From positions 1-33,803 of the forward strand of contig JABGPV010000017.1 of the NCBI GenBank assembly GCA_018644785.1: a stretch of DNA of 33,803 nt. Direction: 5' to 3'. The DNA comes from Deltaproteobacteria bacterium (lineage in GTDB: Bacteria > Desulfobacterota > DSM-4660 > Desulfatiglandales > Desulfatiglandaceae). Positions 1-29,289 of this stretch are shown here, one piece after another (positions within the stretch are counted from its first letter, which is position 1; each line of letters begins with the position of its first letter). The translations under genes and the position numbers were made by a program. The notes under the pieces are model-generated. The model was not told where the DNA came from and made no database searches. It worked only from the letters and a program-made list of their open reading frames with translations.

Positions 1-738
1 CAGACAGGGCAGTATGAGAAGGCTCCATTTGAGGGTCCCCACCAATTCAAGCGGGACCAGGACCATCCTTTCCCTCGTGGAAAAGGTTTTCTTTCGCATC
101 TCAGGCGTTGCCTTGAGTCCGGCATCCAAGAAATGAGGCAGGTCGGTTGATTCAATCGGGCCATAAATGATCTTAAAACCGGAAAGTTTCTTTACCAGGT
201 GGGCCGCAATACCAGGGCCGGACAATTGCGGCAGGATCAACTCCCGGTGGGCAACGATCTGTGCCAGATTGCTGAACTCAATACGCCGGACCAGTTCCTC
301 TGTACCGAACGTCCCCTTCCCTGCGGCACACCAAACATTGATGCCGTTGGTGTCCAATACCAGAATCCATGCATCGCGGGCCGCAAGCGCCTCACGAAGC
401 CGGTCAAAGCTCATCTTGTAATTGGCGGTCACGAATACGCTGGTCTTCTCATCAGGATTTCCGAGGGCATACAAACCGGGATCAACCGTGAATTTCATAC
501 GTCTCACACCCCAACGGGCCTTGATACTTCCGAAGCGATCCGCCCACGTTAACGTGGAGGAAACCCGGGGGACACGCCCCACTTTGCTCTCAACATATCC
601 TTCCACAAATGGCTGCTCCGGGCTCGGCAGGCTCAACTGAGCCGTTCCGCCCTTGGGTCAGCAGCCGGTTGTGGGGGATTGAACCGTTTGAAAATCTACG
701 GTTTTCAGAATCATAAGGTCATCTTTTCCCTGGTTCAT
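1..738 (-). CDS. hgcA: HgcA, mercury-methylating corrinoid protein, candidate selenoprotein (3' end outside window)
   Basis: HgcA transfers a methyl group from a corrinoid cofactor to Hg(II); family proteins have a cytoplasmic cobalamin-binding domain followed by membrane helices. Visible are 246 codons. The hallmark motif NVWCAAGK is at residues 134-141, and Cys137 would be the cobalt ligand; GTFGTEELVRR follows. Residues about 235-246 start the first membrane segment before the window edge. Conserved family sequence extends upstream of the first post-TGA ATG (498), so that ATG is internal. The frame runs back through an in-frame TGA (660-658, codon 27) to ATG 738, which has a GGAG nine bases upstream. 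An in-frame ATG at 765 is another possible start. The alternative to readthrough is a GTG start at 606, also with GGAG nine bases upstream, which would lose the conserved Pro-Phe before it. HgcA identity is near certain; selenocysteine is likely but unproven. It lies 65 bp after arsR; hgcB would be expected just outside. Confidence 0.93.
620..652 (-). promoter_or_regulatory. SECIS-like stem-loop just after the hgcA UGA
   Basis: Five bases after the UGA a hairpin begins. GGGC (652-649) pairs with GCCC (623-620), and GG (648-647) pairs with CC (627-626) with a GA bulge. After a small internal loop, GGCUC (643-639) pairs with GAGCC (634-630) around the tetraloop AGUU. The apical loop starts 19 bases after the UGA and has G in its second position. 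Both match the published description of bacterial SECIS elements (apical loop roughly 16-37 bases from UGA, G in the first two loop positions). The pairing was found by eye; no folding energy was computed. Confidence 0.6.
658..660 (-). other. In-frame UGA, candidate selenocysteine codon 27 of hgcA
   Basis: The TGA directly follows a Cys codon (TTGC then TGA), giving a Cys-Sec pair in a short N-terminal leader. The distance from the TGA to the family-conserved downstream frame is exactly 54 codons to ATG 498, so no frameshift is needed. Upstream coding has a good ribosome site and no other stop. A single-base error turning a second Cys codon (TGC) into TGA, or a start downstream of the TGA, are the competing explanations. 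Confidence 0.65.
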
Positions 739-803
739 ATTTAAGGGCTCCTTTATCCGGTCCATGTAAGGACCTCGGCAAAAAATAATTAAGTTTGTCT
801 TTA

Positions 804-1160
804 TCAGACGTTTAACGATCTCTGAAGGAGGGCCATATAATACGCCATAATCCCCTCGACCGTGCAATAACAGACACGCGGACCATCGACCTCCCCCTGT
901 ATCCAACCGGTTTTTTTCAAGACCTTCAGGTGTTGAGAGACACTGGATTGCGCCAAAGGAAGGGCATCCACAATATCCCCGCAAACACACCTTTCCGCTT
1001 GAGGCTTATTAACCAGAATGCGAATAATCTCCACCCTGGCTGGATGGCCAAGTCCTTTCGATAGTTCGGCCAACCTCTCTTTGCACACCTCCGCAGGGAG
1101 CGTCTCTATTTCCGTCGGATTCACCGGATGACCGTCACCCCAATGATATATTTCTTTCAT
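804..1160 (-). CDS. ArsR/SmtB-family metal(loid)-responsive repressor
   Basis: A winged-helix regulator of 118 residues, the usual ArsR length. The metal-site motif CVCGD is at residues 58-62 (Cys58, Cys60) at the start of the alpha-3 helix, as in ArsR-type sensors. The recognition helix reads QSSVSQHLKVLKKTG (71-85). Extra cysteines at 26, 97 and 99 could complete a thiolate site. Such proteins dimerise on a palindromic operator and release it on binding As(III), Cd(II), Hg(II) or similar. It is first in an operon with hgcA, behind a promoter whose -10 is overlapped by a perfect inverted repeat, so autoregulation and control of hgcA are likely. The inducer cannot be told from sequence. Confidence 0.92.
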   Translation of the reverse strand: MKEIYHWGDGHPVNPTEIETLPAEVCKERLAELSKGLGHPARVEIIRILVNKPQAERCVCGDIVDALPLAQSSVSQHLKVLKKTGWIQGEVDGPRVCYCTVEGIMAYYMALLQRSLNV

Positions 1161-12630: not shown

Positions 12631-13665
12631 TCAGAATTCAATCCCCTTTCTCGCGCCGATGCCATTCTTAAAGGGATGTTTAACCTCTTTCATCTCCATG
12701 ACAACCGTTGCGTGTTTCATCACGTCGGTCTTTGCGTAACGCCCGCCCAGCATAAGATGTACGCCTTTTGGTTTTTTCAAAAGCAAGTTCCGTACCTCAT
12801 CGGGGTGAATGAAACCATAATTAACAGCGATATTGATTTCATCCAGCACCACCAATCCATAACGGGAGGAGAACACAATCTCCTTCGCACGCTCCCATGC
12901 TTCCCTTGCCGCTTTTTTATGATTTGGGTCCGCATCAGGATTTTCTTTGTCCACAAATCCCTCCCCCATAGTCTCAATCTCCACCATGGGCAAATTTTCA
13001 ATGGCCATGACCTCCCCATAAAGCCGGGGAGACTTAATGACCTGAAGGATAAAGGCGGGCATACCCATACTGCTCATGAGCAGGGCCTTGCCCAGACAAT
13101 AAGTGGTCTTTCCCTTACCCTTGCCGGTCACCACTTCGATGGGGCTTTGATGTTCATTCGGGGACGGTGCCTGAACCGCCATTTCCGTTACAAGATCGGC
13201 TTTGCCCATAATTCCATCCGAAGCCTCGGATCCTGTCAGGAGCAACTCCACATGGGCCGCTTTTTCCCGCATCAGTTCCAGGATTTCGTTCACCGGAATC
13301 AAGCCATTTGAAACCGGTTCCAGAACACCATCTAAGACCACCAAATCATAAGTGCCGGACAAAGCAGCCTCCACCGCACTTTGAAAGGCCTCTTTTGCCG
13401 CCCCACCGACCATGCCCGGATCCTTTTTTGAACCCTTCAAGGCTGAAGCGTCAATCACCAGGTTCGGCGCCAGGGATGCGGCGGCCGTCTTTTCCCCACC
13501 CTCCAGATCATGGTGAACAAAACGGGTGATGAGTGAGCGAAGCCCATAACCTGAGGCGCGAAGCGCCAGCCCAAAAGGTGCAAAATTGGCTTTTCCCGAT
13601 GGGCTTGTGTAAACCTGTATCAATCCCGTTTCCTGATTGGTTGATGATATCTTCTTGTTTTTCAT
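12631..13665 (-). CDS. cobO: Cob(I)yrinic acid a,c-diamide adenosyltransferase, duplicated (CobO/CobA/BtuR type)
   Basis: Transfers the adenosyl group of ATP to Co(I) corrinoid, making adenosylcobamide. 344 residues, nearly double the roughly 180-200 of the family. The C-terminal half is a full CobO with P-loop TGKGKGKTT (180-188), VVLDEINIAVNYG and LMLGGRYA. The N-terminal half repeats the same fold with a broken P-loop (TSPSGKAN, 20-27) and matching landmarks YDLVVLDGVLEPVSNG and LLLTGSEA, so it is a degenerate tandem copy. It lies between moeA and the AKR-like gene in one operon. Confidence 0.9.
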   Translation of the reverse strand: MKNKKISSTNQETGLIQVYTSPSGKANFAPFGLALRASGYGLRSLITRFVHHDLEGGEKTAAASLAPNLVIDASALKGSKKDPGMVGGAAKEAFQSAVEAALSGTYDLVVLDGVLEPVSNGLIPVNEILELMREKAAHVELLLTGSEASDGIMGKADLVTEMAVQAPSPNEHQSPIEVVTGKGKGKTTYCLGKALLMSSMGMPAFILQVIKSPRLYGEVMAIENLPMVEIETMGEGFVDKENPDADPNHKKAAREAWERAKEIVFSSRYGLVVLDEINIAVNYGFIHPDEVRNLLLKKPKGVHLMLGGRYAKTDVMKHATVVMEMKEVKHPFKNGIGARKGIEF

Positions 13666-17358: not shown

Positions 17359-17487
17359 ATTCTGATACAATCACTTTGAGAGTTCATCTCTCACATTTAT
17401 AACACGTTGCAGTTGCAGGTTTTTTTGGGCTACAGATATATGTCGTTACAGAACAGACCCATGCCGACTACAAGGTTTCTTCTTTCT

Positions 17488-17785
17488 GTCCCGTAGGGAC
17501 GTATGAAAATAGCCCGGCAATTCATTGCCGGGATTTGTTCATGTAACCGTAATTAGTCCCGTAGGGACGGCAGAGCTTGAAAGCTCCATTCTTCAAACCC
17601 AGATATATCGATCATTATAAAAGACCTCGTTTTTCTTCAAAAAATCAAGGTATTCTTCTTTAAATGTGAAGGCTGATATGGGAATTTCCCACTCGTGATT
17701 TCTTTTCCGGCTATTTTCTGTCGTCCCGATGGGACTAAAAAATTCCGTGGTCATCAAACCCGGCAATGAATTGCCGGGCTATTTC
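17488..17785. repeat. Pair of inverted REP-like palindromes
   Basis: Palindrome CCCGGCAATTCATTGCCGGG (17513-17532) recurs in inverted orientation at 17759-17778, each with an adjacent ATAGC/GCTAT flank. GTCCCGTAGGGAC occurs at 17488-17500 and 17556-17568, and the variant GTCCCGATGGGAC at 17723-17735. The layout, with a transposase-like relic between them, fits a decayed REP/REPtron-type element. Confidence 0.7.
17593..17718 (-). pseudogene. C-terminal relic of a transposase-like protein (possibly Y1/REP-associated)
   Basis: An open frame ends at the TGA 17595-17593 and reads back through residues such as NHEWEIPISAFTFKEEY and FLKKNEVFYNDRYIWV, which look like the C-terminus of small transposases linked to REP sequences. 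No start or N-terminal catalytic part is present; upstream it merges into the second REP palindrome. Family assignment is from memory of similar tails and is tentative. Confidence 0.4.
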
Positions 17786-27549: not shown

Positions 27550-29289
27550 CTATCCGCCACCGCCGCCACCGCCGCCACCGCCGCCACCGCCACCAGTGCC
27601 GTGATCTTTATCACCAGTTTCAGACATATTCTTATAAAGCGTCACATCCAATTCGAAGGTTTCGCCAGGGCTGATATTGATGATTCTTACTTCTTCCAGG
27701 TATTCGTCTTCATACACCCTTATCTCATGCCTGCCCGGGGCAATATCCTGCGCTCTGAAAGGCGCCGTGCCCCGGTAAATCCAAGCTTCTTCACGGTCCG
27801 CCCAGAAGGATATTTCCTTCTTGTCGATATAAACTTTAGCATCTTTGATGTTGCTGGTGACGATCAAAAGGGCGGCTTCTTTTGCAGGTTTTACTTTAGG
27901 CACATGAAGAGACGCGGTTTTAAGCGGTTCACCGGGTGAGGCCTCGGGAGACGCGGTAGTGGTTGCCTGTACTTTTGGTTTTTGCACCTTTACGGCCGCT
28001 GTCTGGACGGTCACTTTATGGGCCTTCGCTTCTCTTTCCCGCCTCAGGTTTTCGGCTTCCTGTTTGAGCCTTTCCTTTTCAAGCCGGACCCGCTCCAATT
28101 CCGCTTCAAGGGCCTGTCTCTTTTGCGCTTCCCGGTCAACCAGTTCCTTTGAATTGGAGAGTCTGGCTTCGTATTCTTTCACACGGATATCGGCCAGTTT
28201 CGCTACGGTCTCCCGTTCTTTTCCCAGTTGCGCGATCTGGTTCTCCAGCGCCTTCTTTTCCTTCAGCGTCTTTGTCCCCTGCTGTTGGGCCTGTTGCTGC
28301 TGTTGAAGCAATTGTTTCATTTCCTTGAGCAACTGGTGTGTCTCTTCACGTTCGGTGCGCAGGTTCCGAATGTCCTTGAGGAGATCCTGCCGTTGGGATG
28401 TGAGCTGTTTCCGCTGCTGTTGTTTTGCCAGGGTTTTCAGCGGCACAAAGATAAAGTCCCCCTGGTCCAGGTCCGGATTGTTGATTTTGCCGTACTGGGG
28501 GTGCTGCTGTCTGCGGGTGTAGTTGACCACATTATCTGCCAGGTACATACCCATTTCGGAGCCAGTAATGTAGCCGTCACCAGTCCTGTCGGCGGCCCCC
28601 TTCAAACCGATCAAGAAACATCGCTTGAACATGCTCTTGTCCGGCACCTGCTCGTCTTCACGACCGGCAGTGATATACTGCCGCACAGGAAGAGTGCTCT
28701 TCTCTGTAATGCCACTGGGTGCCGCCCGTACGAGGGAAAACAGGGCCCCTGAAAAACAGGAGTCAAACAGCATCAACACATGTTTGGCCCGTATCCTGAG
28801 GGATGCTGACTCAATATCCCGCATGCTCACGGCCCGGGACGCAAACCCCATGGGGTTTTTCGCAAGCATGGGACAGTCACTAGGAATAAGGTAGCCCATC
28901 TTGGCGCCGTCTGCCATGATTTCAGTTTCGCCGTGACCGGCGTAATAAAAAAGCACTGCCCGGTTCTTTTTGCGGCCCATGCGGTAGGTCATTTCGTTGA
29001 TGGCAGTCTTCAATTTTTGGGAATCAGGATTGGTCACGAGATTTGCGGAAAATCCCATTTCCCCCAACAGTTTCGCCACTTCTTCTGCGTCACTCACAGC
29101 ATAGGGCAAATCCGGCCACTGTTGATAATCGCTGATGCCCACTACCAGAGCATGGTAACTATCGTAGATAGGCATGTTCAAGCCTTTGGCTGAAACAATT
29201 GCGGTCCCTCGGTTGGCGGAATACAGAACTGCTGGAACCAAAAGAGATAGTGTGAAGATAGCAAAGATAAGAATTGCGATTTTTTTCAT
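27550..29289 (-). CDS. Secreted caspase-like protease with coiled coil, PEGA-like domain and polyglycine tail
   Basis: 579 residues. Signal peptide (about 1-25); peptidase C14 domain with catalytic His (FYYAGHGETE) and Cys (LMLFDSCFSGA) intact; a long Gln/Glu/Lys-rich coiled coil (about 295-440); a PEGA-like beta domain (about 480-560); and about 14 consecutive glycines at the C-terminus before TAG. The caspase part closely parallels the caspase-FGE fusion at 18848, so the two are paralogues with different C-terminal halves. An AGAGG site precedes the ATG. It is first of two genes with the Ig-FGE protein. Confidence 0.87.
   Translation of the reverse strand: MKKIAILIFAIFTLSLLVPAVLYSANRGTAIVSAKGLNMPIYDSYHALVVGISDYQQWPDLPYAVSDAEEVAKLLGEMGFSANLVTNPDSQKLKTAINEMTYRMGRKKNRAVLFYYAGHGETEIMADGAKMGYLIPSDCPMLAKNPMGFASRAVSMRDIESASLRIRAKHVLMLFDSCFSGALFSLVRAAPSGITEKSTLPVRQYITAGREDEQVPDKSMFKRCFLIGLKGAADRTGDGYITGSEMGMYLADNVVNYTRRQQHPQYGKINNPDLDQGDFIFVPLKTLAKQQQRKQLTSQRQDLLKDIRNLRTEREETHQLLKEMKQLLQQQQQAQQQGTKTLKEKKALENQIAQLGKERETVAKLADIRVKEYEARLSNSKELVDREAQKRQALEAELERVRLEKERLKQEAENLRREREAKAHKVTVQTAAVKVQKPKVQATTTASPEASPGEPLKTASLHVPKVKPAKEAALLIVTSNIKDAKVYIDKKEISFWADREEAWIYRGTAPFRAQDIAPGRHEIRVYEDEYLEEVRIINISPGETFELDVTLYKNMSETGDKDHGTGGGGGGGGGGGGGG
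27553..27596 (-). repeat. GGTGGCGGC microsatellite encoding the polyglycine tail
   Basis: Nearly four units of the nonamer GGTGGCGGC end four bases before the TAG stop. Unit gain or loss changes tail length by three glycines without shifting frame. The stop codon lies inside a short hairpin (GATAGC 27538-27543 with GCTATC 27549-27554). Confidence 0.8.

Follow-up and report, generated by a model that had tools for sequence, protein, structure and literature searches.

An in-frame TGA codon in hgcA of a Desulfobacterota bacterium very probably encodes the selenocysteine of an N-terminal Cys-Sec pair

HgcA is required for the methylmercury that enters food webs, and the locus described here raises the question whether a TGA codon close to the beginning of an hgcA gene terminates a short frame or is read as selenocysteine (Sec). 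The window, i.e. the whole stretch of 33,803 nucleotides that was analysed (contig JABGPV010000017.1 of assembly GCA_018644785.1, Deltaproteobacteria bacterium), begins inside this gene (Table 1). The frame that opens at ATG 738-736 runs through TGC and TGA and stays open up to the window start on the minus strand. Its read-through product was identified as HgcA by the NF040863 model, with 312.1 bits over model positions 1-190 of 325, which exceeds the cut-off of 275 although the window start cuts the gene. The product also matched PF03599 (41.8 bits) and contains NVWCAAGK, which we take to be the HgcA cap-helix motif N(V/I)WCA(A/G)GK. A start with a ribosome site, an in-frame TGA following a Cys codon and HgcA beyond it had been described in a first-pass annotation made from the letters alone, and all three were confirmed in the sequence. 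The annotation had further placed the beginning of conserved sequence ahead of the next ATG; indeed, TTG 636 and GTG 606 fall within a stretch that is common to the relatives. A structure search for HgcA returned four distant corrinoid proteins and nothing closer.

Table 1. Coordinates of the features of the window considered in this work
Feature	Position	Strand	Remarks	Basis
hgcA coding sequence, read through TGA	1..738	minus	246 codons; 3' part outside the window	NF040863, PF03599
Predicted N-terminal tail, residues 1-34	637..738	minus	predicted to be unordered	model of relative L002
AAAGGAG, ribosome-site-like	748..754	minus	9 bases before ATG 738	sequence reading
Cys26 codon and predicted Sec27 codon	658..663	minus	TGC 663-661, TGA 660-658	column comparison
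Predicted SECIS hairpin, conserved core	629..644	minus	stem 644-639 with 634-629, loop AGTT 638-635	
Predicted whole stem-loop, lower stem included	612..662	minus	conservation assessed for the core alone	minimum-energy fold
ArsR-family regulator gene	804..1160	minus	same direction, 65 bases before hgcA	PF01022, 38.8 bits
ATP:corrinoid adenosyltransferase	12631-13665	minus	matched in two stretches; hgcA lies about 12 kb away	PF02572
Acido-Lenti-1 RNA	17487-17532	minus		48.1 bits (gathering score 37)
Caspase-domain protein	27550-29289	minus	PEGA domain, long terminal glycine run	PF00656

The position of the TGA was compared in two samples of hgcA genes. A scan with one genome per species gave 301 candidates, the best 80 of which were made into loci (74 parsed, six unparsable). 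Together with the window this near-relative set comprised 75 genes, scored for TGA or Cys within the 25 residues before the conserved PFV stretch: 41 with TGA, 27 with Cys and seven with neither or cut off, the TGA share among such nearest relatives being no fair estimate. A less biased sample was obtained by drawing 297 genomes evenly across the phylum to which the closest relative belongs. HgcA over the cut-off was present in 83 of them, and the 84 matches divided into 32 with TGA, 32 with Cys, nine with another residue, seven short or cut, two without a tail and two unparsed. Merging of eight duplicates resulted in a pooled set of 149 distinct genes including that of the window, with the unparsable six of 80 loci and two of 84 matches remaining outside. 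The pair column of this pooled set holds TGA in 70 genes, Cys in 51 and another residue in 17, nine genes being cut or short and two lacking the tail. L125 and L126, which start after the TGA, are not counted among the 70, nor is the cut gene L151 among the 51; L130 is a doubtful member of the latter, as its Cys may precede the start.

The annotation had suggested looking for a cysteine at the TGA position in homologues, and such a cysteine was found both in these 51 of 149 genes and in database proteins. Among the best 120 of 7996 database relatives, 13 have at least 360 residues, and nine of the 13 (P0003, P0005, P0007, P0008, P0009, P0052, P0089, P0102, and P0112) carry CC at the place of the pair. 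The Cys-type proteins with N-terminal CC, such as P0003 and P0008, represent the same protein with the same tail as in the window, with Cys replacing the predicted Sec: the close relative P0003 reads SCCPGGGKVQLSPPSLDQ, the window GCUPKGGTAQLSLPSPEQ. The pair itself varies. The Cys directly before Sec is absent in six of the 41 TGA genes of the near-relative set, a few TGA genes have no Cys beside Sec at all, and in L114, L137, and L107 the Sec codon precedes the Cys codon (TGA TGC or TGA TGT; UC, not CU). About half of the 17 genes with neither Cys nor Sec at the column retain one Cys beside it.

If the TGA were a true stop, HgcA would start at TTG 636 or GTG 606 and the frame upstream would be a leftover. 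This is where gene callers place the start: the remaining 107 of the best 120 database relatives fall short of 360 residues (335-353), and 105 of them have no Cys within the first 25 residues. However, short proteins are expected if the software took TGA as a stop, the underlying DNA lying outside this comparison. Moreover, a true stop is at odds with the Cys found at the same column in relatives, with the upstream reading frame, which is kept in relatives (MNQGKD.. in L001-L003 and L069), and with a hairpin that is retained against synonymous expectation, as described below. We therefore consider a true stop very improbable.

The hairpin behind the TGA has the geometry claimed for it in the annotation, the loop AGTT having its first base at +20 after the TGA and a G in second place. 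In the folding that had been proposed as a check the hairpin appears in the minimum-energy fold, but energy alone is weak evidence, with unremarkable z values of -1.09 (64 bases), -1.72 (53 bases), and -2.87 (101 bases). In the window the outermost of the six core pairs would be C-T and stays open, and no Rfam match to a SECIS was obtained at this hairpin.

Comparison across relatives was more informative. For the main hairpin type, the stretch of 45 bases that follows the TGA was aligned without gaps in 50 TGA genes, which were picked by loop position, so that the figures describe this type and not all 70 TGA genes. In these genes a six-pair stem encloses four loop bases (+20 to +23), which read AGGT or AGTT in 37 of the 50. 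Of the 300 cells, 92.7% are paired, compared with 28-60% in slid controls. Both sides have changed in four of the six stem pairs, the covariation score is 0.240 vs. 0.167 in shuffles, and three of five stem measures exceed all 500 shuffles. The number of pairs with a change on both sides is not beyond the shuffles (matched by 22 of 500), nor is that of further pair types (matched by 103 of 500). All five inner pairs are present in 49 of the 50 genes, L138 being the exception, whereas in 1000 synonymous shuffles with the genes' own codon use they formed in a mean of 0.9 and a maximum of four of 50. Among the other 20 of the 70 TGA genes, the hairpin is displaced in four (L005, L037, L067, and L080) and differs in sequence in 16. 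The latter hairpins sit at about the same place, as in L114 (GGGTCCCC-GGGC-GGGGACCC) and L137, where the hairpin is likewise of unrelated sequence. The best hairpin has a G as its first or second loop base in 39 of 41 and 30 of 32 TGA genes (two sets that overlap by three genes), but in only 10 of 27 Cys genes. Pairs formed at that place average 1.7 of six in the 27 Cys genes and 5.3 of six in the 41 TGA genes. At the level of sequence, this comparison provides strong evidence for a hairpin that is kept beyond what the protein sequence demands.

The exchange of TGA and Cys at one column and the conserved hairpin support the annotation's central proposal, a Cys-Sec pair with an in-frame Sec codon in HgcA. 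From these data we infer selenium insertion, and the in-frame TGA of the window's hgcA almost certainly codes for Sec.

Of the selenocysteine machinery, SelB and tRNA-Sec were searched for in genomes of relatives with a TGA-type hgcA. SelB was over the cut-off in 12 of the 12 genomes examined and a tRNA-Sec match of 70-75 bits was found in 10, G001, the genome of the closest relative L001, having both. No tRNA-Sec over the cut-off of 47 was detected in the other two (G007 and G011). Since the tRNA-Sec model rings in all 14 control genomes, in five of them over the cut-off, only matches of 70-75 bits were counted. Within the window, no Rfam match to tRNA-Sec was found. In the phylum draw, SelB (E up to 1e-60) was present in 78 of 83 HgcA genomes, namely in 32 of 32 with TGA-type HgcA vs. 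46 of 51 others, and the five genomes without it carry non-TGA HgcA. SelB thus agrees with Sec but hardly tests it, as 46 of the 51 other genomes possess it as well; given its presence in 78 of 83 genomes, it was dropped as a discriminating test.

The distribution of the TGA was followed on a tree computed with FastTree from 146 of the 149 genes (the window gene, L162, and L163 were too short and were left out). The TGA state requires 16 changes on this tree vs. a minimum of 36 in 500 shuffles; it is inherited within clades, yet it appears to have switched repeatedly. Several non-TGA genes have the look of a decayed SECIS: L013 and L064, which encode CC, L033 and L086, which read TGC AGA, as well as L028 and L032. 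The TGC AGA of L033, L086, and L141 is one base away from TGC TGA and the hairpin is partly kept, which, judged by these codons, looks like a recent one-base loss of Sec. L141 is identical to L033 over the compared stretch. In its genome SelB went unmatched at E up to 1e-60; the genome of L086 gave a match.

The annotation's remark that no Sec-containing HgcA had been described did not hold. The available text of PMC13188914 tabulates a selenoprotein HgcA (NF040863, motif CU), credited there to Haft and Gwadz (2023), its reference 63, and to reference 61, and Sec-HgcA is mentioned in that of PMC11588087. As Sec-HgcA is already in print, the window gene adds one more member to a class that has been published, of the same family and with the same Cys-Sec motif; to what extent our counts overlap with those of Haft and Gwadz (2023) is uncertain. 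The same portion of PMC13188914 lists an HgcB with GVGU, credited to its reference 63, and the SaoL and SaoC proteins of the SAO system. These also have CU motifs and are assigned to organometal chemistry, but they represent families different from HgcA, set apart here by name alone. In the accessible part of PMC9312934 the gamma subunit of CO dehydrogenase/acetyl-CoA synthase appears among the selenoproteins, which may be HgcA under its older name. Among papers cited for Sec-HgcA, by term search, neither HgcA nor its older name was found in the main text of the 2008 GOS paper (PMC2398784), and HgcA was not found in PMC5029168 and PMC12013277. The frequency of the Sec form, the Sec-Cys order, the repeated switches and the decayed SECIS remnants were not met in the available portions of the literature on Sec-HgcA, and may be published elsewhere.

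For the surroundings of the pair we used an AlphaFold model of L002, a relative with 387 residues; the model was built from 65 aligned sequences with Sec entered as Cys. The mean pLDDT of the model is 88.4 and it is confident from about residue 40, while residues 1-34, including C26 and U27, are below 50. According to the model, the tail with Cys26-Sec27 is probably flexible. The L002 model also shows long helices at the C-terminus, and an HgcB frame adjoins its gene; the window gene is cut before this region. The HgcA of ND132 is a well-studied enzyme that methylates mercury. L002 has Cys137 where ND132 has Cys93 (numbering as in the available text of PMC11588087 and PMC7305189), and on this numbering, assuming no gaps, the annotated ND132 protein seems to begin about 17 residues downstream of the Sec position.

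With the TGA read as Sec, HgcA would carry a Cys26-Sec27 pair in a flexible N-terminal tail. This pair could bind Hg(II) and pass it on to the methyl-corrinoid centre or to HgcB; it would then act as a metal ligand in the manner of the terminal Cys pair of HgcB, and the selenolate might make the exchange of Hg(II) tighter or faster. Taken as a whole, Sec pair, flexible tail and Hg(II) hand-over form the explanation that we regard as likely, with the hand-over, considered by itself, as its tentative part. Forms of HgcA without the pair exist, so the pair is dispensable in some.

It is conceivable, if rather unlikely, that Sec is inserted and the pair is a redox couple, i.e. an electron or thiol relay for the corrinoid or HgcB and no mercury ligand. 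Sec is best known from redox enzymes, and the pair has been exchanged with Cys many times (the 16 changes on the tree), both of which would suit such a role; its predicted location in an unordered tail that forms no fold by itself argues against it. Another soft metal or metalloid, such as arsenic or selenium species, could also be the ligand of the pair, in connection with the adjoining ArsR-type regulator. In the window an ArsR-family gene lies directly upstream of hgcA, and ArsR control of hgcAB together with an arsenic response has been described for ND132 (available text of PMC10349881). However, a search with the window ArsR as single query, which may miss distant ones, located an ArsR gene no more than 900 bases upstream at only 11 of 96 loci (8/51 Sec, 3/45 other). 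This implies no general link to the pair; we consider this role improbable. A linkage of ArsR to the Sec forms was likewise rejected at 11 of 96 loci.

Binding of Hg(II) by the pair is proposed by likeness to HgcB. The C-terminal Cys94-Cys95 of HgcB has been published (PMC7305189; PMC11588087) on a tail described as disordered (PMC7305189), and C73, C94, and C95 appear crucial for activity (PMC11588087), as far as the available text of these papers goes. In our data, CC lies among the six C-terminal residues of the HgcB found beside HgcA at 51 of 62 Sec loci and at 62 of 74 other loci. In both proteins of the complex a vicinal pair would thus sit on a disordered tail, although in HgcB it belongs to another protein and to the other end, and it is this likeness on which we base the proposal of a mercury-carrying arm on HgcA.

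If the reading is correct, almost two fifths of the phylum's HgcA genes (32 of 84 matches) encode a selenoprotein, the tail is missing from database entries whose start lies beyond the TGA, and selenium would act directly on mercury methylation, as a factor that can be tested. A more far-reaching and speculative picture, which we think unlikely to hold in full, is that a selenoenzyme carries out mercury methylation in a large part of the Desulfobacterota, where a swinging Cys-Sec or Sec-Cys arm on HgcA would load Hg(II) and trade it with the Cys-Cys arm of HgcB, that selenium supply would directly set methylmercury formation, and that the trait has come and gone repeatedly, with decayed SECIS remnants left behind.

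Sec was also sought in HgcB. The GVGC place is free of Sec in all 136 HgcB detected among 157 genes. A Cys-Sec tail on HgcB was considered for five proteins with a single terminal Cys followed by TGA and was rejected, the downstream fold being no better than that of HgcB with CC followed by TGA. The hgcB of L041 ends with SSC, TGA and another stop, where most end with CC, and no convincing SECIS follows.
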